DNA of 64,000 nt, taken from NCBI GenBank assembly GCA_004323695.1, contig SCRU01000028.1, positions 1-64,000 on the forward strand, written 5' to 3'. Below the pieces are notes generated by a model, which was not told the origin of the DNA, ran no database searches, and saw only the letters and a program-made list of their open reading frames with translations. Source of the DNA: Burkholderiaceae bacterium (lineage in GTDB: Bacteria; Pseudomonadota; Gammaproteobacteria; Burkholderiales; Burkholderiaceae_C). Made by a program: the position numbers and the translations under genes. Shown in pieces: positions 6,732-28,711 of this stretch. The stretch's first letter is position 1. Each line of letters opens with the position of its first letter.

Positions 6732-7128
6732 CGCACCGCAACGTTCAAAAAAGGAAATGTCATTGCAACCATGGAGGTTGCGATGAAGTTGGGCAGAACC
6801 CGCGGCACGCCGCCTTCAACACCAGGACGGGCGAAGTGCCAGGCAGGGCAGCCGCCCGGCACACCTTGCCCCACAAGACCAAATGGGCTCACGAGTTGCT
6901 GGCGACCCACGACGATGTTCACATGCACCTCGCCCCCATCTACTCGTCCTGGATCAACCAGGGGGAGTCGTGGTTTGCCAACATCGAGCACGATGTCATT
7001 GCCCGCGGGGTGTTCACCTGCGTGCCCGACTTGAAGAGGAAACCCCTACGATACCTCCGCAGGTACAGCGAGCTGCCCAGACGAGTGAGGTGGAAGTGCC
7101 GTGATCTTTCATGGCACATCACTCCCTA
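6730..7128 (+). mobile_element. IS630-family element remnant, left copy (broken transposase)
   Basis: Translation in one frame gives the C-terminal end of an IS630-type DDE transposase: HLAPIYSSWINQGESWFANI followed by DVIARGVFTCVPDLKRK and RYSELPRRVRWKCRD, ending at TAG 7127-7129. The N-terminal half and the first two catalytic aspartates are missing and no start is credible. The element edge GCGCACCGCAACGTTCAAAA sits directly after a TA of CTAG, the target type used by IS630 elements. The first 59 bases (6728-6786) match 19285-19343 at 49 of 59 positions. No matching right-hand inverted repeat was found. It is a decayed copy. Confidence 0.8.
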
Positions 7129-8366: not shown

Positions 8367-9023
8367 TTACCCAACATGGAGCATGCCCTTGACCGTGATG
8401 AACGAGATCACGTCGCTCAATCCGGTGCAGGTCTTCAGGTTGGTCATGACAAATGGCCTGACTCCGCCGGCGGTGGTTCGCATGCGGCGCGTGTCAGCTT
8501 CCATCACGTCCAGATTTGCACCCACATAGGGAGCCAAATCTGTTTTGTTGATCACGAAAAGGTCGCTCTTGGTAATCCCGGGACCCCCCTTGCGCGGAAT
8601 TTTTTCACCAGCGGCCACGTCGATCACATAAATCGTCAGGTCGCTCAGTTCGGGGCTGAAGGTGGCGGCCAGATTGTCGCCACCACTTTCCACGAACACG
8701 ATATCGGCATTGGGGAAATCCAGCAGCATCTGGTCGATCGCCGCGAGGTTGATGGAGGCGTCCTCGCGGATGGCGGTGTGGGGGCAGCCTCCCGTTTCGA
8801 CGCCCATGATGCGCTCGGCAGGCAGCGCGCCGCTCACCGTTAGCAGTCGCTGGTCTTCCTTGGTGTAGATGTCATTGGTGATGACGACCAGGTCGTAGCG
8901 GTCGCGCATGGACTTGCACAGCATCTCGAGCAGCGTGGTCTTGCCGGAGCCGACCGGCCCGCCAATGCCCACGCGCAGCGGCGGCAGCTTCTTGGTGCGA
9001 TGGGGGATGTGGTGCAGGTTCAT
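8367..9023 (-). CDS. ureG: Urease accessory GTPase
   Basis: 218 residues. The SIMIBI GTPase P-loop [15 protein letters not shown] is near residue 20, followed by the [10 protein letters not shown] block, the metal-binding [12 protein letters not shown] (Cys-Pro-His) and the base-specifying NKTDL. UreG hydrolyses GTP to drive nickel delivery into apo-urease with UreD and UreF. Its ATG overlaps the ureF stop by 4 bases (ATGA). It is the last gene of the ureABCEFG string on the minus strand. Confidence 0.97.
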
Positions 9024-9724
9024 GATCGGAACAGCCTCGAGTATTGGGTTTCGTGCTGGGAGGACAGGATCGCCAGCATCGGGGAAAACGCCTGGCGCTC
9101 GTTGTCCGTCAGTTGCATGGCGTGGCCTACGGCGCCCGGAATTTCATTCGCCAGTCTGGCCAGAATGCGCTGCCCTGCATTCTGCCCAAGCGGCACGGCC
9201 TTGACGGCGCCCTGCACCATATTCTCGGCCCAACCAAACGCAAACGCGAGCAGGCAATCGCGAACGCTGGCGTGCGTGGCCGAGGCCGCCAATGCGAAGG
9301 TAACGGGGTAGGTTGGCCGCATATGCGCGCAGGCGTCGAGTTGGGGCTGGCTCGCTGTGGCCTGATTGCGCAGCCATTGCAGCAACGACTGTCCCATCTG
9401 CTCGGTCTGCAGCCGCAATTCACTGGTCTCCCGGCTCTGTAGCACCCAGACGTTGAGTGGGGCCAGCAGTGCCAGTTCGCCGCAGCGCCAGGCTGCCACG
9501 GCCTTCGCCACGATGGCCAGATCGCCGCGCGCCAGCGCCACATGGAGCTGATTCGACAACCAGTCGGATGCTTCTGTTTCAGTAGCTATAAAACCAGACT
9601 CCACACTGGCTTCGAGCCCTTCTGAGTAAGAAAACCCGCCAATGGGCAAGGCGGGGGAAGCCAGCCAGATGAGCTGCAGCAGGCTGATCGGCGCCAGGGG
9701 GGCGGCTTCGTCGATGGAACGCAT
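9020..9724 (-). CDS. ureF: Urease accessory protein UreF
   Basis: 234 residues. The conserved N-terminal block [21 protein letters not shown] identifies UreF, which bridges UreG and UreD on apo-urease during nickel insertion. ATG 9724 overlaps the ureE stop by one base; a TTG just before it would add one residue. Codons around 9570-9605 are A/T-rich (peptide FIATETEAS) and hold one short-repeat copy in frame. Overlap with ureE and ureG implies coupled translation. Confidence 0.95.
9581..9600 (+). repeat. AT-rich short repeat copy inside ureF
   Basis: AGTAGCTATAAAACCAGACT on the plus strand, antisense to ureF; shares the TAGCTAT core of the dispersed repeat. The gene remains in frame across it. 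Confidence 0.4.
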
Positions 9725-10221
9725 CAATGGTCGTGGTGCCCGTGTCCGTGCGCGTGTTCGTGGGCGCCGGCGGCATAGGCGCCACCCTCGGGTTCAAACG
9801 CTTCTACGACGGGGGTCACGATCAGGTGCATGGCGCGCAGCAGGTCCGCCAGCACATGGTCGGGTTCGATTTTGAGGTGATCGGGCTGCACCTCGATGGC
9901 CACGTGTCGGTTGCCAAGATGGTAGGCCGCACGGGTCAGATCGAATGCCGCCCCGTGCTCTGCGCACCGGGTGATGCGCAGCACCGGCTGCGCCGCCGCC
10001 ATCACGCGGATCAGCGAACCGTCCTGCGCCACCAGCACGTCACCGCCGCGCACCACGGTTCCGCGCGGCAGGAAGATGGCGAGCGCGCGTCCCAGTGAAT
10101 CGGTCGCATCGAAGCGGCTCCTCTGGCGCACGTCCCAGTCGAGTTCCACGGTCGCGGCGCGCCGGATCAGCGCGGCCGCGAGACCGGCCCCTTTGGGCAT
10201 CAGTTTGGAAGCCTGCAGCAT
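9724..10221 (-). CDS. ureE: Urease nickel metallochaperone UreE
   Basis: 165 residues. An N-terminal peptide-binding domain and a metal-binding domain with the conserved [11 protein letters not shown] block (His near residue 106) are followed by a C-terminal His-rich tail, [12 protein letters not shown], typical of nickel-binding UreE. It stores and passes Ni(II) for urease maturation. It begins right next to the ureC stop and ends overlapping ureF. Confidence 0.96.
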
Positions 10222-11940
10222 CTAGAACAGAAAGTAGCGTTGCGTCATGGGCAGGCTGGTCGCGGGTTCGCAGGTGAGCAACTGGCCGTCGGCCCGCACC
10301 TCATAGGTCTGGGCATTCACCTCCATCGCGGGAGCGTAGTCGTTATGAATCATGTGACGCTTTCCCAGGCCGCGAATGCCCCGCACGGCGCTCAGGGGCT
10401 TGACCAGGCCGAAGCGCTCCTTGATGCCGGCCTGCAGTCCGGCTTGCGACACAAAGGTGAGTGAGGATTTGGCAAGCGCTCCTCCAAAGGCGCCGAACAT
10501 CGGGCGGTAGTGCACTGGTTGCGGCGTGGGAATGGAGCCATTCGGATCGCCCATCGCGGCCATGGCGATCAGCCCACCCTTGAGAATGAGGGCGGGCTTG
10601 ACGCCGAAGAACGCAGGCAACCAGATGACCAGGTCCGCCCATTTGCCGACTTCCACCGAGCCGACTTCGTGCGCGACGCCGTGCGCGATGGCCGGGTTGA
10701 TGGTGAACTTGGCGACATAGCGCCGGACCCGGAAGTTGTCATGGCGCTCGCTGTCCCCTGGCAGCTTGCCGCGCTGCTGCTTCATCTTGTGCGCGGTTTG
10801 CCAGCAGCGCAGGATGACCTCGCCCACCCTTCCCATGGCCTGCGAATCGCTGGAGAACATGCTGATGGCGCCGAGGTCGTGCAACACATCTTCGGCCGCG
10901 ATCGTCTCCTTGCGGATGCGGCTTTCGGCAAACGCCAGATCCTCGGCGATGCCCGGATCGAGGTGGTGGCACACCATCAGCATGTCGACATGCTCATCCA
11001 GCGTGTTGACGGTGTAGGGACGTGTGGGATTGGTGGAGGACGGCAGCACATTGGCCTCGCCCACGACCTTCAAAATGTCGGGCGCGTGGCCGCCGCCCGC
11101 GCCTTCGGTATGAAAGGTGTGGATGGTGCGGCCCTTGAAGGCGGCAATCGTGTCTTCCACAAACCCCGACTCATTCAGCGTATCGGTGTGAATGGCCACC
11201 TGGATGTCGGTAGTTTCGGCCACGCTCAGGCAGTTGTCGATGGCCGCTGGCGTGCTGCCCCAGTCTTCATGCAGCTTCAGGCCGACGGCGCCGGCATCGA
11301 CCTGCTCGTGCAGGGCGCCCGGCAAGCTGGTGTTGCCCTTGCCCAGGAAACCCAGGTTCATCGGAAAGGCATCGGCCGCCTGCAGCATGCGCTCGAGGTT
11401 CCAGGGCCCGGGCGTGCAGGTGGTGGCCAGCGTGCCGGTGGCCGGTCCCGTGCCGCCGCCGATCATGGTGGTCACGCCCGAGGTCAGAGCTTCCTCGATC
11501 TGTTGCGGCGCGATGAAATGGATATGGGTATCGACGCCACCGGCAGTGACGATGCGACCCTCGCAGCTGATGATTTCGGTGCCCGGGCCGATGACGATGT
11601 CCACACCCGGTTGTGTATCGGGATTGCCCGCGTGGCCAATGGCGGCGATGCGCCCCTCTTTCAGGCCGATGTCGGCCTTCACGATGCCCCAATGGTCGAT
11701 GATGAGTGCATTGGTCAGCACCGTATCCATCGCGCCTTCGGCACGCGTTCGCTGGCTCTGGGCCATGCCGTCGCGGATGGTCTTGCCACCGCCGAACTTC
11801 ACTTCCTCACCATAGCCGCCACCGCGCAGGGTGTAGTCCTGCTCGACCTCGACGATCAGGTCCGTGTCCGCGAGACGAACCCGGTCACCCACGGTCGGGC
11901 CAAAGATTTCGGCGTAGGCGCGCCGCCCGATACTGGCCAT
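10222..11940 (-). CDS. ureC: Urease alpha (catalytic) subunit
   Basis: 572 residues, full length. Nickel ligands are visible: HIH at 139-141, the carbamylated lysine in [10 protein letters not shown] (Lys222), the HTDTLNE region and the mobile flap MVCHHLD with its catalytic histidine. UreC hydrolyses urea to ammonia and carbamate in the cytoplasm. ATG 11940 overlaps the ureB stop (TGATGG); a GTG one codon earlier is possible. It lies in the ureA-B-C-E-F-G string. Confidence 0.98.
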
Positions 11941-12269
11941 CACACCGTCTCCGGGGGCGACGCGTCGAGCGCCCCCATGATGTCGCCGCGAAAGCCATAC
12001 ACTTTTCGCGCGCCAGCGTAATCCACCAGTTCCACGGTGCGCTGCTGGCCGGGCTCGAATCGCACGGCGGTGCCGGAGGTGATGTTCAATCGCATGCCGC
12101 GTGCCGCGCCACGGTCAAAGCGCAGCGCCGCATTGGTTTCCTCAAAATGATAGTGCGAGCCCACCTGGATCGGCCGGTCACCGGAGTTTTGCACGACCAA
12201 CGTGACCGTGCGGCGCCCCACGTTCAATGGATGCTCGCCGTCATCGGTGAAAATTTCTCCGGGGTACAT
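11940..12269 (-). CDS. ureB: Urease beta subunit
   Basis: 109 residues starting MYPGEIF, with [18 protein letters not shown] as the family signature. It is a structural subunit of the (alpha-beta-gamma)3 urease. It is separate from ureA, as usual outside Helicobacter. It starts 16 bases after the ureA stop and overlaps ureC. Confidence 0.97.
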
Positions 12270-12285
12270 GAATGAGAACCTCCGT

Positions 12286-12588
12286 TCAGACGATGGGCTG
12301 GTGCACGGTCACCAGTTTGGTGCCATCGGGAAAAGTCGCCTCCACCTGAATGTCGGGAATCATCTCGGCGATACCGTCCATGACGTCGGCGCGCGTCAGC
12401 ACGGTGCGCCCTTCACTCATGAGCTGGGCCACGGTCCTGCCGTCGCGTGCGCCTTCCATGACGGCGGCGGAAATCAGCGCCACCGCCTCCGGATAGTTGA
12501 GCCGCAACCCACGCGCGCGCCGGCGTTCGGCAAGCAGGGCCGCCGTGAAGATCAGTAGCTTGTCTTTTTCGCGGGGCGTCAGTTCCAT
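12286..12588 (-). CDS. ureA: Urease gamma subunit
   Basis: 100 residues, [20 protein letters not shown] onward, the standard size and sequence for the gamma subunit. The frame is open far upstream, but those 67 residues are unlike UreA and would cover the promoter region, so ATG 12588 is used. It is the first gene of the minus-strand urease operon; a sigma54-type promoter at 12630-12644 would give a leader of about 30 bases. Confidence 0.96.
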
Positions 12589-12629
12589 GGTGGAGATGTG
12601 GTCGGTCGGCGATAGCAGTTGATTGTGCA

Positions 12630-12644
12630 GCAACTTGCGTTCCA
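12630..12644 (-). promoter_or_regulatory. Sigma54 (RpoN) type promoter for ureA
   Basis: Minus-strand TGGAACGCAAGTTGC matches TGGCACG-N4-TTGC at 10 of 11 fixed positions, with GG and GC 10 bases apart. The predicted start is near 12618, 30 bases before the ureA ATG. Confidence 0.7.
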
Positions 12645-12696
12645 GCCATACCTGGCATCGCCTGTCGCGGTGACGGCTCCAGCTGCGGATCCCTTC

Positions 12697-12711
12697 GCAC
12701 CGTCGCGGTGC
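12697..12711. promoter_or_regulatory. NtrC-type binding site between the divergent urea operons
   Basis: GCACCGTCGCGGTGC is a perfect GCACC-N5-GGTGC palindrome, the NtrC consensus. Its centre is about 86 bases upstream of the predicted ureA start site and about 106 bases upstream of that of urtA, normal enhancer distances. Confidence 0.6.
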
Positions 12712-12783
12712 TGGGCGCCGCCCGAAACGGTGCGTTTTCGAACCGTCCGGACTGCTGAGCGCCCGCTGGACGGGCATAGGGCC

Positions 12784-12798
12784 TGGCACGGAGTTTGC
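12784..12798 (+). promoter_or_regulatory. Sigma54 (RpoN) promoter for urtA
   Basis: TGGCACGGAGTTTGC matches TGGCACG-N4-TTGC at every fixed position. The predicted start is near 12810, leaving about 43 bases of leader before urtA, whose RBS GGAGAG is at 12840-12845. Confidence 0.8.
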
Positions 12799-12852
12799 GA
12801 TTCATCAATCGATCTGATTGTGGATCGCAACCTATTTCTGGAGAGCCTGAAT

Positions 12853-14097
12853 ATGAACCGACGTGGAAATCTGAAGGCGGTCGCGGCGGCTGCCGTCACC
12901 GCCAGTGGCATGTTTTCTTTCGCACCGAAGGTGTTCGCCGCAGGCAAGGCGCCGATCAAGGTTGGCATCCTGCACTCCCTGTCAGGCACCATGGCCATCT
13001 CGGAAACGGCGCTGAAGGAAGTGGACCTGATGACCATTGCCGAGATCAACGCCGCGGGTGGCGTGGACGGCCATCCGATCGAGCCTGTGGTGGTGGATCC
13101 GGCCTCGAACTGGCCGCTGTTCGCGGAAAAGGCGCGCCAGCTCATCTCGCAGGAAAAGGTGGCTGCGATTTTCGGTTGCTGGACTTCTGTTTCGCGCAAG
13201 TCGGTACTGCCGGTGCTGGACGAACTCAACGCCCTGCTGTTCTACCCGGTGCAGTTCGAAGGCCAGGAAGAAAACAGGCACGTCGTGTACACCGGCGCAG
13301 CCCCCAACCAGCAGGCCATCCCCGCCACCGAATACTTGATGAGCAAGGACGGTGGTGGCGCCAAGCGGTTTTTCCTGCTCGGCACCGACTATGTGTACCC
13401 GCGCACCACCAACGCCATCCTGCGCGGCTTTCTGCACTCCAAGGGCGTGAAGGACAGCGACATCTCCGAGGTCTATACGCCGTTCGGATTCGCCAACTAC
13501 CAGAACATCGTCGCCGACATCAAGAAATTTGCTGCGGCGGGACCGACCTGCGTCATCTCCACCGTGAATGGCGACTCCAACGTGCCTTTCTACAAGGAAC
13601 TGGGCAACCAGGGCATCAAGGCGACCGACATTCCGGTGGTGGGATTTTCCATCGCGGAGCAGGAAATTGCGGGCATGGACATCAAGCCGCTGGTCGGCCA
13701 GCTCACGGCCTGGAACTACTTCCAGTCGCTCAAAAACGGGAACAACTCCAAATTCGTCAAGTCCTGGCAGGATTGGGTGAAAAAGAAGGGCCTGAAGGAC
13801 TACCCCGTGACGGACGATCCGATGGAGGCCTCCTACATCGGCATCCACATGTGGAAGCAGGCGGTGGAAAAGGCCAAGTCCACCAAGACGGATGAAGTCC
13901 GCAAGGCGCTGGTCGGACAGAAGTTCGCTGCTCCCGACGGTTACACCGTCGAGATGCTGGAGAACCAGTACCTGAGCAAGCCGGTAGTCATCGGACAGAT
14001 CAATGGCGACGCCCAGTTCGACGTGGTCTGGAAGTCCCCGGGCCTCGTGCCGGGGGAGGCGTGGAGCCCGTACATCCCGAAGCCGAAGAACGCCTGA
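12853..14097 (+). CDS. urtA: Urea ABC transporter substrate-binding protein
   Basis: 414 residues. An N-terminal signal (MNRRGNLKAVAAAAVTASGM to about residue 30, cleavage after VFA) leads to a type I periplasmic binding protein fold. Sequences such as VGILHSLSGTMAISE, DGHPIEPVVVDPASNW and AAIFGCWTSVSRK are characteristic of UrtA. It captures urea in the periplasm for UrtBCDE. ATG 12853 follows GGAGAG at 8 bases; the longer open frame upstream covers the promoter. It is the first gene of urtABCDE. Confidence 0.95.
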   Translation: MNRRGNLKAVAAAAVTASGMFSFAPKVFAAGKAPIKVGILHSLSGTMAISETALKEVDLMTIAEINAAGGVDGHPIEPVVVDPASNWPLFAEKARQLISQEKVAAIFGCWTSVSRKSVLPVLDELNALLFYPVQFEGQEENRHVVYTGAAPNQQAIPATEYLMSKDGGGAKRFFLLGTDYVYPRTTNAILRGFLHSKGVKDSDISEVYTPFGFANYQNIVADIKKFAAAGPTCVISTVNGDSNVPFYKELGNQGIKATDIPVVGFSIAEQEIAGMDIKPLVGQLTAWNYFQSLKNGNNSKFVKSWQDWVKKKGLKDYPVTDDPMEASYIGIHMWKQAVEKAKSTKTDEVRKALVGQKFAAPDGYTVEMLENQYLSKPVVIGQINGDAQFDVVWKSPGLVPGEAWSPYIPKPKNA

Positions 14098-14134
14098 GTT
14101 TTCGGCACGCACTGGCGGGTGCCCGGTCCGTGCC

Positions 14135-15724
14135 GTGTTTCGTCGCGGACCAGGCAGGGTGTGCCTGCTGCTCGCGCCGCTGGCGCGGGCGCTGAGCCCC
14201 CAAGAGGCGCTGGGCATCGCCCGCGGCAGCGCCGATACCCGTGTGGCGGCGCTGCAAAAGGCAGCCGAGCATCCCGACGCACGGCTGGCCGTCTTCATCA
14301 CGGCGCTGCTCAATGACCGCGTGCAGATCGATGGCAGCAGGGTACAGGTGCGCCAGGGCAACGGCTGGGTCGACCTCGCCACCGGCCAAGTGGTCACCCC
14401 GAGCGAGAACGCGCAGGGTGTGATCAACAACAACTACATCCGCAAGCAGCTCACCGCCGCGCGCGCCGCGCTCGATCTGTTCGACCCCGACCGGCAGGCC
14501 CGGCTCACGGCCGTGCGCGCCTTGCAGAACGACCCGTCTTCGGTCGACCGGCCACTGGTGGAGCAGGCGCTCAAGGCGGAAAAGGACGCGGAGGTGCGTG
14601 AGCATCTTGACCTGTTGCACGCCGCCATACTGTTGATCAGCCCCTCGGCCAGCGAGCGACTGACCGCTGCCAGGACGCTGGCCGCAAGCGACTACCCGGC
14701 GGTGCGCACGCTGCTGCTGTCGCGGCTGGACAAGCCGGGAGGCCAGTACGCCGAGCCCGATGCCGCGGTGCGCGCGCAGATCCGGCAATCGTTGCGTGCC
14801 ATTGATTCCCGCCTCGCGTGGGGCGCACGCGTGGGCACGCTGTTTTCCGGCATCAGCCTGGGCAGTGTCCTGTTGCTGGCCGCGCTGGGGCTGGCCGTCA
14901 CCTACGGGCTGATGGGGGTGATCAACATGGCCCAGGGCGAGTTCATCATGGTCGGGGCCTATGCCACCTACGTGATGCAGAACCTGTTCCAGCGCTATCT
15001 GCCGGGGCTGGAAAGCTACGCACTGGTGGCGGCCGTGCCGTTTTCCTTCATCGTCGCGGGCGGCGTCGGTATGGTGGCGGAGCGCGCCATCATTCGCCGC
15101 CTGTATGGCCGCCCGCTGGAGACCCTGCTGACCACCTGGGGCATCAGCCTGGTGCTGATTCAGCTCATGCGCAGCCTGTTCGGGCCGCAGAACGTGCAGG
15201 TGGACAACCCGCCATGGATGTCGGGGGGGCTGCAACTCATGGCCAATCTCATCCTGCCGTACAACCGCATGGTCATCATCGTCTTCACCGCTTTCGTGTT
15301 GCTGGCGATGTGGTTGCTCATCTCGCGCACGCGCATGGGCCTGTTCGTGCGGGCGGTCACGCAGAACCGGCCCATGGCCTCGTGCGTTGGCGTGCGCACG
15401 CCGCGGATCGACATGCTGGCCTTCGGCCTCGGCACCGGTATTGCCGGGCTCGCGGGCTGCGCGTTGAGCCAGATCGGGAACGTGAGCCCCGAGATGGGGC
15501 AGGGCTACATCGTCGACTGCTTCATGGTGGTGGTGCTCGGCGGCGTGGGCCAGCTCACTGGCACGGTGGCGGCCGCCCTCGGGCTGGGGGTGGCCAACAC
15601 CCTGCTCGAAGGTGTGGCCGGCGCGGTGCTGGCGAAGATTGCCGTGCTGGTGGCCATCATCCTGTTCATCCAGAAGCGCCCGCAGGGCATGTTTGCCCTC
15701 AAGGGCCGCAGCGTGGAGAGCTAG
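14135..15724 (+). CDS. urtB: Urea ABC transporter permease UrtB
   Basis: 529 residues if GTG 14135 is the start. As in other UrtB proteins, a long periplasmic N-terminal region (about residues 20-220, SPQEALGIARGSADTRVAAL onward) precedes a LivH-type membrane domain (about 235-520) with GLMGVINMAQGEFIMVGAYA. The signal sequence is short (VCLLLAPLARA). No good RBS precedes GTG 14135; GTG 14159 is an alternative but would remove the positive residues. It forms the transmembrane pore with UrtC. Confidence 0.88.
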   Translation: MFRRGPGRVCLLLAPLARALSPQEALGIARGSADTRVAALQKAAEHPDARLAVFITALLNDRVQIDGSRVQVRQGNGWVDLATGQVVTPSENAQGVINNNYIRKQLTAARAALDLFDPDRQARLTAVRALQNDPSSVDRPLVEQALKAEKDAEVREHLDLLHAAILLISPSASERLTAARTLAASDYPAVRTLLLSRLDKPGGQYAEPDAAVRAQIRQSLRAIDSRLAWGARVGTLFSGISLGSVLLLAALGLAVTYGLMGVINMAQGEFIMVGAYATYVMQNLFQRYLPGLESYALVAAVPFSFIVAGGVGMVAERAIIRRLYGRPLETLLTTWGISLVLIQLMRSLFGPQNVQVDNPPWMSGGLQLMANLILPYNRMVIIVFTAFVLLAMWLLISRTRMGLFVRAVTQNRPMASCVGVRTPRIDMLAFGLGTGIAGLAGCALSQIGNVSPEMGQGYIVDCFMVVVLGGVGQLTGTVAAALGLGVANTLLEGVAGAVLAKIAVLVAIILFIQKRPQGMFALKGRSVES

Positions 15725-15728
15725 AGCG

Positions 15729-16871
15729 ATGGCTGCCATCATGACCGAATCCGGCGCACGGAGCACGCCGCCCGTGCCGCCAGGGGCGCCGCTGCAGCCC
15801 ACCACCCGGTTCCTGCCCACATGGGGCTGGGTGACGTTGACCGTGTTCCTGCTGCTGGCCTGTGTCGTGGCGCCGGCGCTGGCGCTCGGCGTGCCGCAGA
15901 GCAGCAGTCTGCATCTGTCGCAATACTGGGTTGGCCTGGCCGGCAAGATCCTTTGCTATGGCATCGTCGCACTGGCGATGGATCTGGTGTGGGGTTACGC
16001 CGGCATCCTGTCGCTCGGCCAGGGTCTGTTCTTTGCCTTGGGCGGGTATGCCATGGGCATGTACCTCAACCGCGCCATGACGGCGGCCAGTGGCAACCTG
16101 CCGGACTTCATGCAGTTCATGCAGTGGACACAGTTTCCCTGGTACTGGGCAGGCACCGAACACTTTGCCTATGCCATGTTCCTGGCCCTGTTCGTGCCGG
16201 GGCTGCTCGCCTTCATCTTCGGCTTCTTTGCCTTCCGTTCGCGCATCAAGGGGGTGTATTTTTCCATCATTACCCAGGCGCTGACCTACGCCGCGATGTT
16301 GCTGTTCTTCCGCAATGAAACCGGCTTTGGCGGCAACAACGGGCTGACCAACTTCAATGTGCTGCTCGGCTTTCCGGTAGGGACGGCTGGCATGAGGGTG
16401 GCGCTGTTGGTCGCGACCAGCGTTGCGCTGGCCGGCTGCTTCGTGCTGGCCCGCTGGCTGGTGCTGAGCAAGTTCGGCCGTGTGCTCACCGCCATCCGCG
16501 ACGCCGAAAGCCGGGTCATGTTCTGCGGCTACAACCCCTTGTGGTTCAAGCTCGGGTGCTGGACCATCGCCGCCATGATGTGCGGCCTGGCTGGCGCACT
16601 TTACGCGCCGCAGGTGGGGATCATCAACCCGGGAGAAATGTCCACCTCCAACTCCATCGAAATCGCCATCTGGACGGCCATTGGCGGGCGTGGCACGCTC
16701 GTCGGCCCGGTCGTCGGGGCCGTGTTGGTGAACGTCGCGAAAAGCTGGCTCACGCAAGCCTATCCCGAATTCTGGCTGTACTTTCTGGGCGGACTGTTCA
16801 TTGCGGTGACGCTGTTTTTGCCCGATGGCGTGGCCGGTCTGGTGCGCAAATTCAGGAGGGGTCCGACGTGA
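15729..16871 (+). CDS. urtC: Urea ABC transporter permease UrtC
   Basis: 380 residues, LivM-type permease with about ten hydrophobic segments. Family blocks LVWGYAGILSLGQGLFFALG and TAIGGRGTLVGPVVGAVLVN are present. It pairs with UrtB. ATG 15729 lies 4 bases after the urtB stop; its own stop overlaps the GTG start of urtD. Confidence 0.93.
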   Translation: MAAIMTESGARSTPPVPPGAPLQPTTRFLPTWGWVTLTVFLLLACVVAPALALGVPQSSSLHLSQYWVGLAGKILCYGIVALAMDLVWGYAGILSLGQGLFFALGGYAMGMYLNRAMTAASGNLPDFMQFMQWTQFPWYWAGTEHFAYAMFLALFVPGLLAFIFGFFAFRSRIKGVYFSIITQALTYAAMLLFFRNETGFGGNNGLTNFNVLLGFPVGTAGMRVALLVATSVALAGCFVLARWLVLSKFGRVLTAIRDAESRVMFCGYNPLWFKLGCWTIAAMMCGLAGALYAPQVGIINPGEMSTSNSIEIAIWTAIGGRGTLVGPVVGAVLVNVAKSWLTQAYPEFWLYFLGGLFIAVTLFLPDGVAGLVRKFRRGPT

Positions 16872-17743
16872 CGCCCGACCTGCTTCAGGAAGGCTCGCAG
16901 CGCATGGAGGCCCATGCCCGGCTGGCGCAGCAGGGCCAGACCGAATCGGGTGGCCGCCAGGCGGGCTTCGGACGGGTTGCGCAGCCCGGCGAGGTGGACG
17001 TGACGCACGGCCGCATCCTGTACCTGGAAGACGTGAGCGTGAGCTTCGACGGATTCAAGGCCATCAACCAACTGTCGCTGGACATTGCGCCCGGCGAGTT
17101 GCGCTGCATCATCGGCCCGAATGGCGCCGGCAAAACCACCCTGATGGACATCATCACCGGCAAAACCCGGCCGGACCACGGCACGGTATTTTTTGGCAGT
17201 ACCATCGATCTGTTGCGCTACAGGGAGGCCGAGATCGCCCAGCTCGGTATCGGCCGCAAATTCCAGAAACCGACTGTGTTCGAGCAGTTGACCGTGTTCG
17301 AGAATCTCGAGCTGGCGCTCAAGACACCCCGGGATGTGGTGGCCGCCATGTTCTTCAAACTCGATTCTGCGCAGAGCGACCGGCTGCTCGAAGTGCTCGG
17401 CACGATTCACCTGACCGACTGCGCCTCGCGCATGGCCGGTAATTTGAGCCATGGCCAGAAGCAGTGGCTGGAAATCGGAATGCTGCTGATGCAGTCGCCC
17501 AAGCTGCTGTTGCTCGATGAGCCCGTAGCGGGGATGACCGACGAGGAAACCGAGCGCACGGCGGAATTGTTTCTGTCGCTCAAGGGCAAGCATTCGCTGA
17601 TGGTGGTGGAACACGACATGAGCTTCATCCAGTCCATTTCCGACATCGTGACGGTGCTGTGCGAGGGCTCGGTGCTGGCCCAGGGCACACTGGACCAGGT
17701 GCAGGCCGACGAGCGCGTCATCGAGGTCTACCTGGGGAGGTAA
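16868..17743 (+). CDS. urtD: Urea ABC transporter ATP-binding protein UrtD
   Basis: 291 residues. The ABC domain starts near residue 52 after a family-typical N-terminal extension. Walker A is GPNGAGKTT, the signature region is NLSHGQKQWLEIG and Walker B LLLLDEPVAGM. GTG 16868 overlaps the urtC stop and has AGGAGGGG 7 bases upstream. It drives urea import with UrtE. Confidence 0.94.
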   Translation: MTPDLLQEGSQRMEAHARLAQQGQTESGGRQAGFGRVAQPGEVDVTHGRILYLEDVSVSFDGFKAINQLSLDIAPGELRCIIGPNGAGKTTLMDIITGKTRPDHGTVFFGSTIDLLRYREAEIAQLGIGRKFQKPTVFEQLTVFENLELALKTPRDVVAAMFFKLDSAQSDRLLEVLGTIHLTDCASRMAGNLSHGQKQWLEIGMLLMQSPKLLLLDEPVAGMTDEETERTAELFLSLKGKHSLMVVEHDMSFIQSISDIVTVLCEGSVLAQGTLDQVQADERVIEVYLGR

Positions 17744-17747
17744 TGCG

Positions 17748-18440
17748 ATGCTGAGCGTGAAAAACGTCAACCAGTACTACGGCGGCTCGCACATCCTGCG
17801 TAACGTGAGCCTGGAGGCCCGTCTGGGTGAGGTCACCGTGCTGCTGGGCCGCAATGGGGTGGGCAAGACGACCCTGCTCAGGAGTCTGATGGGGCTGGTG
17901 CCGATCAAGACCGGCAGCATCGAGTTTGACGGCCGGCCAATCCAGAACGCCGCTCCGTATGAGCGCGCGCGCGCCGGCATCGGCTTTGTGCCGCAGGGTC
18001 GTGAAATCTTTGCGCGACTCACGGTGCAGGACAACCTGCGCATGGGGCTGGCGTATCAGCGGGGTAGCACCCCGATCCCCACCGAGCTGTTCGGGCTGTT
18101 TCCGGTCTTGAAGCAAATGATGGGGCGGCGCGGCGGGGACCTGTCGGGCGGACAGCAACAGCAACTGGCGATCGCACGCGCGCTGGCGGCAAGGCCCAAG
18201 CTGCTGATCCTCGACGAACCCACCGAAGGCATCCAGCCCAGCATCATCAAGGAGATCGGCCGCGTCATCCGCATGCTGGCCGATCGTGGCGACATGGCCA
18301 TCCTGCTGGTTGAGCAGTACTACGACTTTGCACGGGAGCTGGCCGACGAGTATCTGGTCATGCAGCGCGGTGAATTCATCGCGCGCGGGCGTGGCAAGGA
18401 CATGGAGGCCGATGGCGTGCGGCAACTGGTCGCTATTTAA
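17748..18440 (+). CDS. urtE: Urea ABC transporter ATP-binding protein UrtE
   Basis: 230 residues, LivF-type ATPase: Walker A GRNGVGKTT, signature LSGGQQQQLAIARAL, Walker B LLILDEPTEGIQPS. The GIQPS after Walker B is characteristic of UrtE. RBS GGGAGG precedes the ATG. Its stop is only 9 bases from the converging ureD stop, with no terminator between them. Confidence 0.95.
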   Translation: MLSVKNVNQYYGGSHILRNVSLEARLGEVTVLLGRNGVGKTTLLRSLMGLVPIKTGSIEFDGRPIQNAAPYERARAGIGFVPQGREIFARLTVQDNLRMGLAYQRGSTPIPTELFGLFPVLKQMMGRRGGDLSGGQQQQLAIARALAARPKLLILDEPTEGIQPSIIKEIGRVIRMLADRGDMAILLVEQYYDFARELADEYLVMQRGEFIARGRGKDMEADGVRQLVAI

Positions 18441-18449
18441 ATACGAGCA

Positions 18450-19280
18450 TTACATCGACCATATACGAGGGTTTTGGGCCGATTTCCCCCACAAATGCGC
18501 ACGCCAGGTGACCCAAATCTGGCGCAGCAAGCCCATCGCCGGCTCGACCAGTGGCGCCAGGGCTCGCACCACCACGACCTGGTTATTCGGACTGGTGGCG
18601 CCGGCGGTGCACTGCAGTTCGTGTGCGCCCAGAACCGCGCGTGCGCCGTCCAGCGCCTGTTGGCGGCGTTCGCGCCCCAACGGGCTGCCCGTCACGAAGA
18701 AGATCGAGGCCAGACAGCGCCGCCCCGCGAGTCCGACCGGCCCATCCAGCAGCTGCCGGTCGGTGGCGCTGATCTGCCCACGTTCCAGCCACACGCCGGG
18801 CAGTTCGATGTGCTGGCGGAAGCTGCCGTGCGCGAACAGCTGGTCAGTGTATGGCAGTCCCAGCGCGGTGACGTCCCATCCGATCATTTCGGCATTCGGC
18901 GCCAGTTCCAGGATCAGGCGGTTTTCCGCGATGCAGCCGTCGTAGCAGAGGGTCTCCAGTGGCAGCCATTCGAGGCGCGCGCCGGCGTCGAGCGTGATGC
19001 GGGTGCGCTGCCCGGCGGCTTCGCCCATGGTTTTGTAAAAGCGCGTGGCCCCGGGCGTAGTAATCAGACCGTGCGCGCCCGGGCCGACCGTGATGCCGAT
19101 ATCGAGCGTGTCGCCGCCGACCAGGCCGCCTGGTGGATGCACCAGCACGTTATGGCAGATCGCATCGCCTTCGGGATACAAGCTTCGCAGGATGCGCAGC
19201 GGGCCATCGTGCTGGAACCGGGCCACGCTTCGATGGGACTCCAGAAGATAGTCGAGTTGCAGTCGGGCGTGCCAAGGCAT
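18450..19280 (-). CDS. ureD: Urease accessory protein UreD
   Basis: 276 residues, MPWHARLQLDYLLE onward, with LRILRSLYPEGDAICHNVLVH and GGDTLDI typical of UreD/UreH. It binds apo-urease and funnels nickel from UreG. ATG 19280 is chosen; the alternative six residues upstream would be encoded by the edge of the IS630 remnant. Unusually, ureD is split from ureA by the whole inverted urt operon and must be expressed from within or beside the IS remnant. Confidence 0.94.
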   Translation of the reverse strand: MPWHARLQLDYLLESHRSVARFQHDGPLRILRSLYPEGDAICHNVLVHPPGGLVGGDTLDIGITVGPGAHGLITTPGATRFYKTMGEAAGQRTRITLDAGARLEWLPLETLCYDGCIAENRLILELAPNAEMIGWDVTALGLPYTDQLFAHGSFRQHIELPGVWLERGQISATDRQLLDGPVGLAGRRCLASIFFVTGSPLGRERRQQALDGARAVLGAHELQCTAGATSPNNQVVVVRALAPLVEPAMGLLRQIWVTWRAHLWGKSAQNPRIWSM

Positions 19281-19285
19281 ACAGC

Positions 19286-19594
19286 TAGCGTACCGCAACG
19301 TTTAAAAAAGGAAGTGTCATAGCAAACGTCGGGGTCGCTATGAGACACAGCTGAGCCCGCGTTGCAGCGCGGTGGTGGTCGGCATCGATGAGAAGACTGC
19401 GATTCAGGCACTGGATCGTCTGGACCCGGGGCTGGCGCTGTTGCAGGGCAAAGCCGCCGCCCGGTACACCTTGCCTCCCAAGACCAAACGGGTTGTCGAG
19501 TTGCTGGCGACCCACGGCGACGTCCACATGCACCTCGCCCCCACCTACTCGTCCTGGATCAACCAGGGGGAGTCGTGGTTTGCCAACATCGAAC
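19286..19594 (+). mobile_element. IS630-family element remnant, right copy (broken transposase)
   Basis: From 19372 the frame reads VVGIDEKTAIQALDRLDPGL, then jumps to GKAAARYTLPPKTKRVVELL and HLAPTYSSWINQGESWFANI, so the middle of the DDE transposase (about 50 residues including an aspartate) and the C-terminal tail after FANIE are deleted. The edge GCGTACCGCAACGTTTAAAA follows a CTAG and matches the left copy, same orientation. The two copies bracket the urea genes. Confidence 0.8.
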
Positions 19595-19615
19595 TTGTTT
19601 TCATGGTGCTTCATC

Positions 19616-19679: not shown

Positions 19680-20111
19680 TTACGGCTTGCTGGCCGTCGG
19701 AAACGGCCAGGCGGCTTGCGGGTTCAGCGTTGTCTGAGCCGCGGGCGCTACCGCAACAGGGGCTGCTTTCGCAGCGGGTTTTTTCGCTGCTTTCTTCGCA
19801 GCGGGTTTTTTCGCTGCTTTCTTGGCTGCCGCTTTTTTCGCGGGCGCTTTTCTGGCGGCTGCTTTTTTCTTCGCAGGCGCCTTCTTCGCCGCGGCCTTTT
19901 TCTTGGCCGGAGCTTTCTTGGCCGCTACCTTTTTGGCAGGGGCCTTCTTCGCTGCGGCCTTCCTGGCCGGAGCTTTCTTGGCCGCTACCTTTTTGGCAGG
20001 GGCCTTCTTCGCTGCGGCCTTCCTGGCCGGAGCTTTCTTGGCCGCTGCCTTTTTAGCAGGAGCCTTCTTCGCTGCGGCCTTCTTTGCGGCCGGTTTTTTC
20101 GCAGTTGCCAT
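19680..20111 (-). CDS. Histone H1-like DNA-binding protein (Ala/Lys/Pro repeats)
   Basis: 143 residues, of which about the first 115 are [10 protein letters not shown]-type repeats, giving a very basic, unstructured protein like the C-terminal tail of eukaryotic H1 and the bacterial HC1/AlgP group. It likely compacts DNA or tunes transcription. The last 25 residues ([20 protein letters not shown]) are not basic. ATG 20111 has AAGGAGA with 6-base spacing; an adjacent ATG at 20114 is closer to the RBS than normal. The repeats are encoded by tandem DNA copies prone to length change. Confidence 0.88.
19921..20040 (-). repeat. Perfect 60-bp tandem duplication in the H1-like gene
   Basis: Bases 19921-19980 and 19981-20040 are identical, encoding two exact 20-residue Lys/Ala/Pro units; a third, diverged unit follows to about 20090. 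This marks recent slippage or unequal recombination. Confidence 0.9.
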
Positions 20112-20291
20112 CATCTTCTCCTTGATCAAATTGCAAAGAGCACTTCATGTTTGTTGGTTGGCATGAAGCGATCCATGGTGTTGGAACGAGCGTCCAGCAC
20201 CATGAACACGGAAGCGCCAGCAGTCGCCACGCTCTGCGGCGCGATCGACAGACGGTGCAATTCTTGATTTCATTTTTCTTGTCGTGATACT
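20112..20291. other. Upstream region of the H1-like gene
   Basis: 180 bases between the H1-like start and the nrdB stop. It must hold the H1-like promoter, but no clear -35/-10 pair was found; no terminator is evident after nrdB. Confidence 0.35.
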
Positions 20292-24966: not shown

Positions 24967-25575
24967 TCAGGCGTTGGCTGGCGGCATGGCGCCATCGGGA
25001 AAACACTGAGTCCGCCAACCCAGCGCGCGTTGCAAAAACCCCCATTGAAAGCCGCTGCCCGGATCGTGCTTGCGCCCCGGCGCGATATGTTCGTGACCGG
25101 CGACATGCGCGACTGGGTAACGTTGCGCCAATGCGGCGCAAAGACTCGCCAGCGTTTCGTATTGGGCCGGCTCAAACGCGCTGCCCTCCAGACCTTCCAG
25201 CTCGATGCCGATCGAGTCGTCGTTGCAGTTGTCGCGACCACGGTAGTGCGAGCGCCCGGCATGCCAGGCGCGTTCGTCGCAACTGACGAACTGCCATAAC
25301 GCGCCATCCCGGCGAATCAGGAAGTGCGCTGACACCTGCATGCCGCGGATCGATTCGAAGTAGGGATGCGCGCTCCAGTCCAGCGTGTTGGTGAAAAGTC
25401 GCAGCACTTCCCCGCCGCCGTAGTGTCCGGGCGGCAGGCTGATCGAGTGCAGCACGATCAGGTCGATCAGCGCACCGGCCGGACGCTCTCCTGCGTTGGG
25501 CGAGCGCAGCATTCGTGCAAACCGGTACCAGCCCTCCTGCCACAAGCCACAGATGGCACGGTTGTCAGGCGGCAT
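24967..25575 (-). CDS. ampD: 1,6-anhydro-N-acetylmuramyl-L-alanine amidase AmpD
   Basis: 202 residues from ATG 25575 (25581 and 25596 are in-frame alternatives inside pilR). Amidase_2 fold: the zinc ligand His in LIVLHSISLPPG, and His/Asp in VAGHEHIAPGRKHDPG. It cleaves the anhydro-muropeptide amide bond during cytoplasmic peptidoglycan recycling. The residues WAMAGR-type block appears as ERAWHAGRSHYRGRDNCND. It overlaps the 3' end of pilR, so it is probably the last gene of that operon. Confidence 0.93.
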   Translation of the reverse strand: MPPDNRAICGLWQEGWYRFARMLRSPNAGERPAGALIDLIVLHSISLPPGHYGGGEVLRLFTNTLDWSAHPYFESIRGMQVSAHFLIRRDGALWQFVSCDERAWHAGRSHYRGRDNCNDDSIGIELEGLEGSAFEPAQYETLASLCAALAQRYPVAHVAGHEHIAPGRKHDPGSGFQWGFLQRALGWRTQCFPDGAMPPANA

Positions 25576-26995
25576 CGTCATGGGTGTCGTCGCCAAACGG
25601 GGTGGTGATGTTCAGGCGGGCGATGCGATAACGGATCTGGCGCAGGTTAAGGCCGAGCCGCGCAGCGGCGGCGGTGCGGTTGAAGCCGGTTTCCGTGAGC
25701 GTCTTGACCAGCACTTCGCGTTCCTGCTGATCCAGATAGCTTTGCAGGTCGCCGGGAGCGGCGGGCGCGCCGACAGCCGCTTGTCCCGGCACGAGATCGA
25801 CCTGCAGCTCGCTGCCGTCGCTCAAGGCCACTGCGCGATGCAGCAGATTTTCGAGCTCGCGCACATTGCCGCTCAGCGGATGTGCTGCCAGTTGTGCCAG
25901 CAGGGTGCTTGAAAGCGCGGGCACCGGCATGTCGGACTCCTGTGCGATCTTTCCGAGCAAGGCTTCGCACAGAGCCGGCAGATCGCCGCGCCGCTCACGC
26001 AGCGGCGGCACCGCGATCTCAATCACGTTGAGGCGGAAAAACAGATCCTGCCGAAAGCGGCCGGCCGCCACGTCGGCGGTCAGATCCCGATGCGTGGCGC
26101 TGACGATGCGCACGTCCACCGCGTCTTCCTGCGTCGAACCCAGCGGACGCACGCTGCGCTCCTGGATGGCGCGCAGCAGTTTGGACTGCATGGCCAGCGG
26201 CAGGTCGCCAATTTCATCCAGAAACAGCGTGCCCTTGCGCGCCGCCTGGAAATAACCATCCCGGTCCTGGGTGGCGCCGGTGTAGGAGCCTTTTTTGGCG
26301 CCGAAGAATTCTGCCTCGAGCAGGTTCTCGGGAATGGCCCCGCAGTTCACCGCGACGAACGGGGCTTGCGCGCGATGGCTGCAGCCGTGGATGGCGCGCG
26401 CCACCAGTTCCTTGCCGGTGCCCGACTCGCCGCGCACCAGCACCGGCGCCATGCTGCGCGCCACCTTGACGATCCGCTGCTTGACCTGGCGCATCGGCTC
26501 GGAGTCACCGACCAGGCGCTGCAGCGATGCCGGCGTGCCGCCCTGTGCATCGGCCGGGCTCGCGGCCCTGGCCGGGCCTGGGGTGCCGCGCCCGCTTTTG
26601 TATATCTGGCCCGTGTCCTGAATGGCGGATGCCACCACCGTACGGAACTGTTTCAGGTCCACAGGCTTGGTGAGGTAGTCGAACGCACCGGCTTTCAGGG
26701 CCTCCACGGCGTTTTCGGCGGAGCCGTAGGCCGTCATGACGATGCAGCGCTCGGCCCGCTGCCTGGCCTGCATATCCGTCAATAGCTCCATGCCCCGGCC
26801 ATCCGGCAGGCGCATGTCCGTGATGACCGCGTCGTAGCGCTTTTCTTCCAGCCAGTGCCGGGCCTCGGCCAGATTCGCCGCGGCGTCCACGTGATAGCCC
26901 TCGCGCGACAGGGTGAGTTCGTACAGGTCGCGCAGGTCGGGTTCGTCGTCGACGACCAGGACCTGCGCCCGGGACTGGGAAGAGCTGGCTGACAT
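25565..26995 (-). CDS. pilR: Sigma54-dependent response regulator, PilR type
   Basis: 476 residues in three domains: receiver (phospho-acceptor Asp60 in [11 protein letters not shown]), AAA+ sigma54-activating domain (Walker A GESGTGKE, the loop GSYTGA in place of the common GAFTGA, Walker [10 protein letters not shown]), and a Fis-type helix-turn-helix ([20 protein letters not shown]). Together with the PilS-like kinase immediately upstream it would control type IV pilin transcription. The Ser-Tyr variant of the GAFTGA loop is close to that of known PilR proteins. Confidence 0.9.
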
Positions 26996-27013
26996 GGCTA
27001 GTCACGCATTGTG

Positions 27014-28711
27014 TCAAATAGGAGGCTTGGCGGAACGGAAAACGACAAAAAACGCGTTGCCTTCACGTTCGCCGCCGCCGTCGCCCCGGCGGGTCCGCTC
27101 ATATCCGATGAGCGCGCCATGGCGTTCGCACAACTCGCGGCAGATGTACAGACCCAAGCCGCTCGAGCGGCTCTCCGAGGAGAAAAAGGGTTCGAACAAA
27201 TGGCGTTCCACGCTAGGCTCGAGCGGCGCGCCATCGCTCCAGACCTCCAGCCGCGCCTGGCCAGGCGCGGGTGAATGGGTCGAGACCTGAAGGGACTCGG
27301 GTACATGGCTGGCGTAGCGAAAGGCATTGTCCAGCAGGTTTACCAAGACCCGGCGCAGATGATCGGCGTCGAAGGCCACTTGCATAGGCGCCGCCTGCAG
27401 CGCCAGTCCGATGGTGCGGCCGCTACTGGCGTGCCGCGCCCAGTCCATGCAGATGTCCTGAACCGCGGCGTCCAGATTCAGCGAGGCAGGCCGGGACGGG
27501 TCGGACTTTTGCTGCGCCCGCGATACATCCAGCACGTCCTCCACGATGCGGGACAGCCGTTGCGCGTTCTGCGCCACCATGAGGCCCAGGCGCCGCTGCG
27601 CCGGCTCGGTCAGGTCCTCGTTGAGCAAGGCATTCGCCTGGGTGATGGCGGCGAGCGGGTTGCGTATCTCGTGCGCGACCGCGGCCGACATGCGCCCCAT
27701 CGCGGCCAGCTTCTCGGTGCGCAGGCGTGCCTCCATCTCGCGCAGATCCTGCAAAAACATCACGCACAGGCTCTCCGCCTCGTCGTCGTGGGTCGCCGTC
27801 AGGCGCGTGCGGGCACGCACCTGGCAGGCGTACAGTCCGGCATGTTCAATGACCAGGTCGGCGATCTGGTCGCCGCGCTGGCGAAAGGTCAGGCGCGCCA
27901 GTTCGGCCACCGCGCGCCAGGCTGGCTTCGAATCGAGAACGAATGGCGCCATTGGTGCCGGGGTGCCGGCGCCGAGCAACCCGCGCGCTGCCGGATTGGC
28001 GGCGCGCACGACGCCCCTGGCATCGGCGACCAGCACGCCATCCGTCAGACTTTCGATCACCAGCTCGTTGACATGGGTCTGGATCCGCACCGCGAGCCCG
28101 CTGCGGCGCGCCCGCAGTTCCTCGCGCACCAGGCGCGTGGCGAGTTGGTGCGTCAAATAGGCGACGATGAACAGGCCGATGCCGGCCAGCCCGGCCTGCA
28201 GGAAATGGGAGGCCATGTCCCCCGTGGCCTGCAACGAGGTCCGCCAAGCGTCCATCAGCAGTATCAGGGTCACACCCGCGGCCGTGCCCAGTGCGAGCAA
28301 AACCGAGCCGAGTACCGATGCCAGCAGCACCGGCAAGGCATACAACGGGGTGTAGTTGATTGCACTGACCTGGGAAAACTGCAGCGCCGTGAACACCAGT
28401 ACATCCACGCCGATGGTGAACACCCATTGGGGATCGAAGTTCTGCCCGGGCCAGCGCGGGCGGGCATAGATCCGCACGGCCAGCGTCACCGCCAGATAGG
28501 CGGCGGACAGCGCCATCAGCCATTTGTGGACCGGTTGACCCAGGCCAACCATAGAGACTTGCAGCAACAGCAGCAGAACGCCGACCGTGACGCGCGCCGT
28601 CATGAAGCCGCGCCACAGCCGCACGATCGCCAGATTCTGCTGCACCGATTTGGCGATGCGCTCGGGCTCGAGCGGGCCGAACCAGGACGCGGCCTCTGGC
28701 GGACGGCTCAT
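27014..28711 (-). CDS. pilS: Membrane sensor histidine kinase, PilS type
   Basis: 565 residues. About six membrane segments occupy residues 40-200, a PAS-like domain follows, then the dimerisation H-box AVAHEIRNPLAAI (His near 347) and the ATPase domain with GLGLYICRELCERHGA. The polytopic sensor is the PilS architecture. It begins right after the stop of the PP0621-like gene and ends 18 bases before pilR. The signal is unknown; in Pseudomonas PilS senses pilin subunits in the membrane. Confidence 0.9.
   Translation of the reverse strand: MSRPPEAASWFGPLEPERIAKSVQQNLAIVRLWRGFMTARVTVGVLLLLLQVSMVGLGQPVHKWLMALSAAYLAVTLAVRIYARPRWPGQNFDPQWVFTIGVDVLVFTALQFSQVSAINYTPLYALPVLLASVLGSVLLALGTAAGVTLILLMDAWRTSLQATGDMASHFLQAGLAGIGLFIVAYLTHQLATRLVREELRARRSGLAVRIQTHVNELVIESLTDGVLVADARGVVRAANPAARGLLGAGTPAPMAPFVLDSKPAWRAVAELARLTFRQRGDQIADLVIEHAGLYACQVRARTRLTATHDDEAESLCVMFLQDLREMEARLRTEKLAAMGRMSAAVAHEIRNPLAAITQANALLNEDLTEPAQRRLGLMVAQNAQRLSRIVEDVLDVSRAQQKSDPSRPASLNLDAAVQDICMDWARHASSGRTIGLALQAAPMQVAFDADHLRRVLVNLLDNAFRYASHVPESLQVSTHSPAPGQARLEVWSDGAPLEPSVERHLFEPFFSSESRSSGLGLYICRELCERHGALIGYERTRRGDGGGEREGNAFFVVFRSAKPPI

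Follow-up and report, generated by a model that had tools for sequence, protein, structure and literature searches.

Divergent urease and urea transport operons of a Burkholderiaceae bacterium flank a probable two-site NtrC/sigma-54 control region

We analysed a stretch of 64,000 nucleotides (contig SCRU01000028.1, hereafter the window) from the assembly GCA_004323695.1 of a Burkholderiaceae bacterium, in which a gap of 264 bp separates ureA (start 12588, minus strand) from the divergently oriented urtA (start 12853, plus strand). The ureA gene (12286..12588), encoding the urease gamma subunit (NCBIfam NF009712, 175.6 bits, cut-off 123), leads ureABCEFG on the minus strand. Its partners ureB (11940-12269) and ureC (10222-11943) were identified with NCBIfam models, and ureE (9724-10221), ureF (9020-9727) and ureG (8367-9023; CobW/HypB/UreG domain) with Pfam; in the list of open reading frames (ORFs), the five genes from ureB to ureG (8367..12269) almost abut on that one strand. 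On the plus strand, urtA (12853..14097), for the urea-binding protein of an ABC transporter (TIGR03407, 533.3 bits, cut-off 492.75), is followed by urtB, urtC, urtD and urtE (14003..18440; TIGR03409, TIGR03408, TIGR03411 and TIGR03410, each above its cut-off). The respective ORFs span 14003-15724, 15612-16871, 16541-17743 and 17748-18440, and the first three of these ORF starts overlap the preceding gene and look too early as gene starts. The NCBIfam, TIGR and Pfam assignments, ureABCEFG to the left and urtABCDE to the right, bear out the original prediction of a urease operon and a urea transport operon at either edge of the gap.

The ureD gene (18450-19298, minus strand) is separate from ureABC and convergent with urtE. 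One copy of a 163-nt transposase-like repeat starts about 140 bp before the ureD start; the two copies of this direct repeat (87% identical; 6837-6999 and 19442-19604) flank the entire nickel transporter-ure-urt-ureD block. We take their translations to resemble remnants of an IS630-type transposase, and these translations gave no Pfam match at 0.001. Further along, an alanine/lysine-rich protein built of repeats with a 15-base step, presumably histone-like, is encoded at 19680-20129 on the minus strand.

The two outward-facing sigma-54 boxes claimed in the original prediction, each with the GG-N10-GC arrangement, are base-exact: TGGAACGCAAGTTGC lies at 12630..12644 on the minus strand, toward ureA, and TGGCACGGAGTTTGC at 12784..12798 on the plus strand, toward urtA. 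Against the sigma-54 consensus TGGCACG-N4-TTGCW (12 informative positions), both score 11/12, a value reached on the relevant strand by none of 500 dinucleotide shuffles of the gap. With transcription starts placed 12 bases downstream of the C in the -12 GC, the predicted ureA start falls at 12618 (minus strand), 30 bases before the ATG, and the predicted urtA start at 12810 (plus strand). The pattern TGGNACGN4TTGC occurs seven times in the 3.81 Mb genome, as against 11 occurrences of the reversed control pattern, and two of the seven lie inside the 264-bp gap, facing outward; a single match therefore means little, and it is the pair that is informative. When up to three mismatches are allowed, the window has no excess of the sigma-54 pattern over shuffles (333 versus 340.57). 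A sigma-70-like promoter, the alternative for the gap, was sought in 12550-12900 and none was found, with just 0.2 expected by chance.

Between the boxes, a palindrome of the form GCACC-N5-GGTGC, GCACCGTCGCGGTGC (spacer GTCGC), lies exactly where it had been predicted, at 12697..12711, and is the first predicted NtrC site (site 1). Its description as perfect holds for GCACC-N5-GGTGC; of the 17-mer NtrC consensus of Escherichia coli, TGCACCAnnnTGGTGCA, given in a passage of PMC8743547, site 1 matches 10 of the 14 specified bases and lacks the inner A and T. None of 500 dinucleotide shuffles of the gap produced a 10/10 palindrome. The genomic count of perfect palindromes (32, compared with five for the control pattern) was discarded as evidence. 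Of the 31 other copies, 30 are without a sigma-54 box scoring at least 10/12 in the 350 bp around them; the exception is the palindrome of glnA.

The original prediction had a single NtrC site shared by the two promoters. Site 1 stands, and a second, weaker conserved site had been missed: the probable site 2 at 12719..12733 (CGCCC and GGTGC around GAAAC) scores 7/10, with a poor left half (2/5) and one strong half-site, GAAACGGTGC (12724-12733), all ten columns of which are invariant in the five genus genomes compared below. Site 1 is centred 86 bp from the predicted start of ureA and 106 bp from that of urtA, as originally proposed and correct given the rule by which the starts were placed; for the centre of site 2, these distances are 108 and 84 bp. 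An NtrC enhancer dyad usually lies about 80-200 bp from the transcription start, a range that holds the 10/10 dyad at both of its distances, and NtrC oligomer assembly takes at least two dimer sites. Judging from the sequence, the enhancer probably comprises two NtrC sites 22 bp apart, not one.

The search for related loci covered 60 genomes, our own included, 31 of which have ureA. Among the seven members of the genus, five, again including our own, carry ureA with a close urtA; neither was found in G001 or in G003, whose genome is 89% complete. The four congeners that carry the pair share the divergent layout, with gaps of 263-265 bp that are 55-64% identical to that of the window, and 120 of the 264 gap columns are invariant across the five genomes. 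A first multiple alignment of the window with the Thiomonas-type and two other gaps was useless since gap lengths differ, and motifs were then scored gap by gap. Within the genus, the palindrome arms are invariant (10/10) and only one of the five spacer bases is, the other four varying; 14 of 15 columns are invariant in the ureA-side box and 12 of 15 in the urtA-side box. Among all 15-base stretches in the gap, the best conserved (12622-12638, 15/15) overlap the ureA-side box. Conservation alone is no proof of promoter function, because a block of the urtA leader (12811-12827) is conserved equally well (14/15), on a par with the boxes. This leader, CGATCTGATTGTGGATCG (12810..12827, plus strand, from the predicted urtA start), holds an inverted repeat, CGATC-TGATTGTG-GATCG, that is kept in the genus with one outer C changed to T in G004. 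A short stem-loop in the urtA mRNA suggested itself and was rejected: the sequence is conserved, yet the fold is no better than that of shuffles (z -0.13 and -0.17).

Spacing is conserved as well. The predicted starts are 192 bp apart in the window and 193 bp apart in the four congeners; across the five genomes, the ureA start is separated by 86 bp from site 1 and by 108 bp from site 2, the corresponding distances for the urtA start are 106-107 and 84-85 bp, and the two sites are a constant 22 bp apart. In 5/5 genomes the pair of sites is centred between the predicted starts with an offset of 0.5-1 bp; three of these genomes (G002, G005 and G006) are mutually close, so that the five do not represent five independent lines.

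The genome encodes the proteins that such a region would require, namely RpoN (PF00309, 72 bits, cut-off 23.8) and NtrC (TIGR01818, 621.9 bits, cut-off 558.6), with ntrC following the palindrome of the glnA promoter by 3.4 kb on the same contig. Four further matches to the NtrC model (282-374 bits) are other sigma-54-type activators; NtrC is hence the likely activator and another of these a possible one. The window itself encodes, at 25565-28711 (minus strand), a response regulator of the sigma-54 type next to a membrane sensor kinase, which we take to be a PilR/PilS-like pair. Its NtrC-like regulator (25565-26995) was rejected as NtrC, scoring 376.7 bits, below the cut-off of 558.6.

Similar pairings of site and box occur at other nitrogen promoters of this genome. 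The glnA promoter contains the palindrome GCACCGAAATGGTGC and the sigma-54 box TGGCACGAAAGCTGC; like the urea gap, it combines tandem GCACC-N5-GGTGC-like sites with a -24/-12 box, but it is one-directional and its sites are further upstream. In six of the seven genus genomes, three glnA sites (7-10/10), two or three of them scoring 8-10/10, are spaced 24-27 bp apart, compared with the two sites of the urea gap; the seventh genome offers only 136 bases upstream of glnA. The promoter of porin-glnK-amtB has GCACTGCAACGGTGC (9/10) and TGGCATGGTCCGTGC (10/12), amtB having been identified by Pfam and the porin and glnK genes by eye. A perfect palindrome 0.6 kb before amtB (C59:47709) was set aside, as by eye it falls inside the end of the porin-like gene; the actual amtB-side site is likely the one upstream of porin. 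Another perfect palindrome (C22:13678) was likewise dismissed, being within an ORF with no nitrogen gene recognised by eye next to it.

These observations bear on two alternatives. One is that the motifs are chance matches in a GC-rich gap conserved for some other reason, as might be suspected from a sigma-54 pattern that is not enriched genome-wide (7 versus 11) and from palindromes as common as 32 in this genome. We regard this as highly improbable: each score was reached by 0/500 shuffles, the palindrome arms are invariant while the spacer changes, the spacing is constant in the genus, and glnA and glnK-amtB show a similar pairing. The other accepts that both promoters depend on sigma-54 and NtrC and has each draw mainly on a separate site, ureA on site 1 and urtA on site 2, or else has competing loops serve one promoter at a time. 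In that case there would be no genuine sharing of the enhancer, and the two operons could respond out of step. The presence of a near site for each promoter, 86 bp from the ureA start and 84 bp from that of urtA, favours this arrangement, but site 2 is weak alone (7/10) and the 22-bp spacing resembles that of the tandem glnA sites (24-27 bp), which suggests one cooperative enhancer; on balance we find separate use of the sites rather unlikely.

The comparison was extended beyond the genus with urtA loci, of which the best 80 among at least 596 were kept and 78 were usable; L071 and L073, matches without a urtA start, were left out of the upstream count. Among these best-matching loci, 71/78 have a sigma-54 box of at least 10/12 on the coding strand in the 300 bp upstream of urtA and 2/78 have one on the other strand, while an NtrC-like site of at least 9/10 occurs upstream of urtA in 31/78, against 1/78 for the reversed control. 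Sigma-54 control of urtA thus looks widespread in these beta- and gammaproteobacteria, as far as such motifs can indicate. In addition, 16 divergent ureA/urtA gaps, three of them near-identical, were scored (the window, six loci from the urtA search and nine from the ureA search). The urtA-side box scores 11-12/12 in all 16. On the ureA side, the box scores at least 10/12 in eight gaps, 9 in seven and 8 in one, and a score of 9 was reached by 42-82 of 500 shuffles; the eight include L046, where the box is just 13 bases from the ureA ATG. A perfect palindrome is present in 6/16 gaps, five of the six from this genus, and in the remaining 10 the best NtrC-like site was matched by 24-404 of 500 shuffles (24-282 for the four Thiomonas-type gaps). 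Given the weaker ureA-side boxes and a palindrome in only 6/16 gaps, we are less sure of the ureA promoter and of the exact enhancer outside the genus.

This contrast raises the alternative that the working sigma-54 promoter serves urtA only, the ureA-side box being conserved but minor and ureA relying mainly on another promoter or on basal expression. The prevalence of urtA-side boxes, in 71/78 upstream regions among the best 80 of at least 596 loci and at 11-12/12 in 16/16 gaps, agrees with such a division, as do the weaker ureA-side boxes outside the genus and the fact that a different regulator, OmpR, has been studied for Yersinia urease (PMC7156557). Yet within the genus it is the ureA-side box (14/15) that the best conserved stretches (12622-12638, 15/15) overlap, this box keeps a fixed distance from the NtrC sites, and the search of 12550-12900 left no sigma-70-like promoter to take its place, making a urtA-only promoter, in our estimate, distinctly improbable. 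Urease maturation also requires ureD. A sigma-54 box of at least 10/12 was absent from the 500 bp upstream of this gene, both in the window and in the four congeners (best 7-9); ureD is outside the proposed nitrogen-control unit.

A comparison of ten loci revealed a mosaic history of the transport operon. The Ure proteins of the window are closest to those of the genus (UreA 95-97%), with one Rhodoferax locus tying with the genus in UreG at 89% for one congener. UrtA is only 68-70% identical to its genus counterparts, as opposed to 84-86% to those of Thiomonas sp. FB-6 and three metagenome genomes grouping with FB-6, and UrtB and UrtC have the same Thiomonas-type affinity. UrtD is again of the genus type (86-90% versus 68-71%), as is UrtE (82-85% versus 72-75%). 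Sliding identity places one switch point at about 12900-12950, within the signal-peptide region of urtA, and the other at about 16700-16750, at the end of urtC. In trees of the 34 of 78 loci having both proteins, UrtA joins the Thiomonas set with support of 100/100, and UrtD joins the genus and L046 with 100/98. By this sequence evidence, urtABC (about 12900-16750) is a Thiomonas-type replacement behind a native control region, ureABCEFG, the gap, urtD and urtE being of the genus type. An assembly artefact is a possible source of the urtABC tract, considering that the genome is in 203 contigs with an estimated contamination of 3.5%.

Both nitrogen control of urea genes by NtrC and sigma-54 and divergent sigma-54 promoter pairs are already known. 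In a Burkholderia cenocepacia ntrC mutant, ureA, ureC, urtB and urtD are down by 4.2-5.9 log2 units (PMC5491218); a sigma-54 promoter upstream of urtA has been reported in Herbaspirillum seropedicae and NtrC/sigma-54 control proposed (a passage of PMC3093359); and a Paraburkholderia phymatum rpoN mutant provides an experimental link between sigma-54 and growth on urea (PMC5748707). B. cenocepacia H111 and H. seropedicae have the same urt/ure genes and the same predicted regulators as the locus described here. In the available description of H. seropedicae, however, urt is upstream of the ure cluster, and the locus numbering in the B. cenocepacia source suggests one urt-ure run, unlike the divergent operons of the window, where ureA has its own sigma-54 box. 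Predicted NtrC targets in Proteobacteria include ureABC and urtABCDEF; for these genes the relevant part of PMC5343134 lists Alteromonadales, Oceanospirillales, Rhizobiales and Rhodobacterales and does not name betaproteobacteria.

Divergent sigma-54 promoter pairs comparable to the one described here are found in the enteric hyc/hyp (activator FhlA) and zraP/zraSR (activator ZraR) systems. In the table of PMC3844500, a box at 2999639-2999622, whose row name is not visible, and the hypA box at 2999753-2999770 face apart with 114 bp between them; the same source cites Lutz et al. 1990 for divergent NtrA-dependent promoters of the hyc/hyp cluster and gives both zraP and zraSR as ZraR/sigma-54 targets. 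The zraP/zraSR pair is divergent around one RpoN-bound gap (in a passage of PMC8743547). These systems involve other genes and activators (responding to formate and zinc), and the likeness noted here is that of the promoters. We noticed no paper on a divergent ureA/urtA sigma-54 pair in our literature search, an absence that is no proof.

The sequence elements are present, conserved and at fixed spacing in the genus, rpoN and ntrC are encoded, and glnA and glnK-amtB have similar promoters. The footprint, the regulator genes and this shared promoter anatomy support the originally predicted NtrC/sigma-54 control of both divergent operons, and we consider it likely that a two-site NtrC enhancer in the gap activates both under nitrogen limitation. 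Our confidence is slightly reduced by the other sigma-54 activators of the genome, by the urtA leader block that equals the boxes in conservation, and by the missing sigma-54 box of ureD. NtrC and sigma-54 act by an established general mechanism. Applied here, it would make the 264-bp gap a bidirectional control region responsive to nitrogen: when nitrogen is limiting, phosphorylated NtrC would occupy the two mid-gap sites (12697-12711 and 12719-12733), form an ATPase oligomer and, through DNA looping, open sigma-54 RNA polymerase at the two divergent -24/-12 promoters. Transcription of ureABCEFG would then be fired leftward from about 12618 and that of urtABCDE rightward from about 12810, such that urea uptake and hydrolysis would be induced jointly. 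In this scheme, we infer NtrC binding, the transcription starts, the reliance of both promoters on one enhancer and the nitrogen response.

Tentatively, and with less than even confidence, we go further and suggest that the gap is a near mirror-symmetric enhancer, in which two NtrC dimers centred within 1 bp between the promoters would place one site near each promoter, at about 85 bp, and the other farther off, at about 107 bp. This geometry may have been selected to match the output of transporter and urease, and would have proved robust, staying native through the exchange of urtABC for Thiomonas-type copies.

The prediction that urea uptake and urease are co-induced when nitrogen is short is only a modest surprise, such co-induction being established in relatives. 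What the locus would offer is a compact and testable example of two operons in one pathway sharing a single NtrC enhancer, with spacing held to about 1 base among the genus members that have the gap, and of a regulatory region that appears to have been retained through the replacement, from another lineage, of some of the operon genes behind it.
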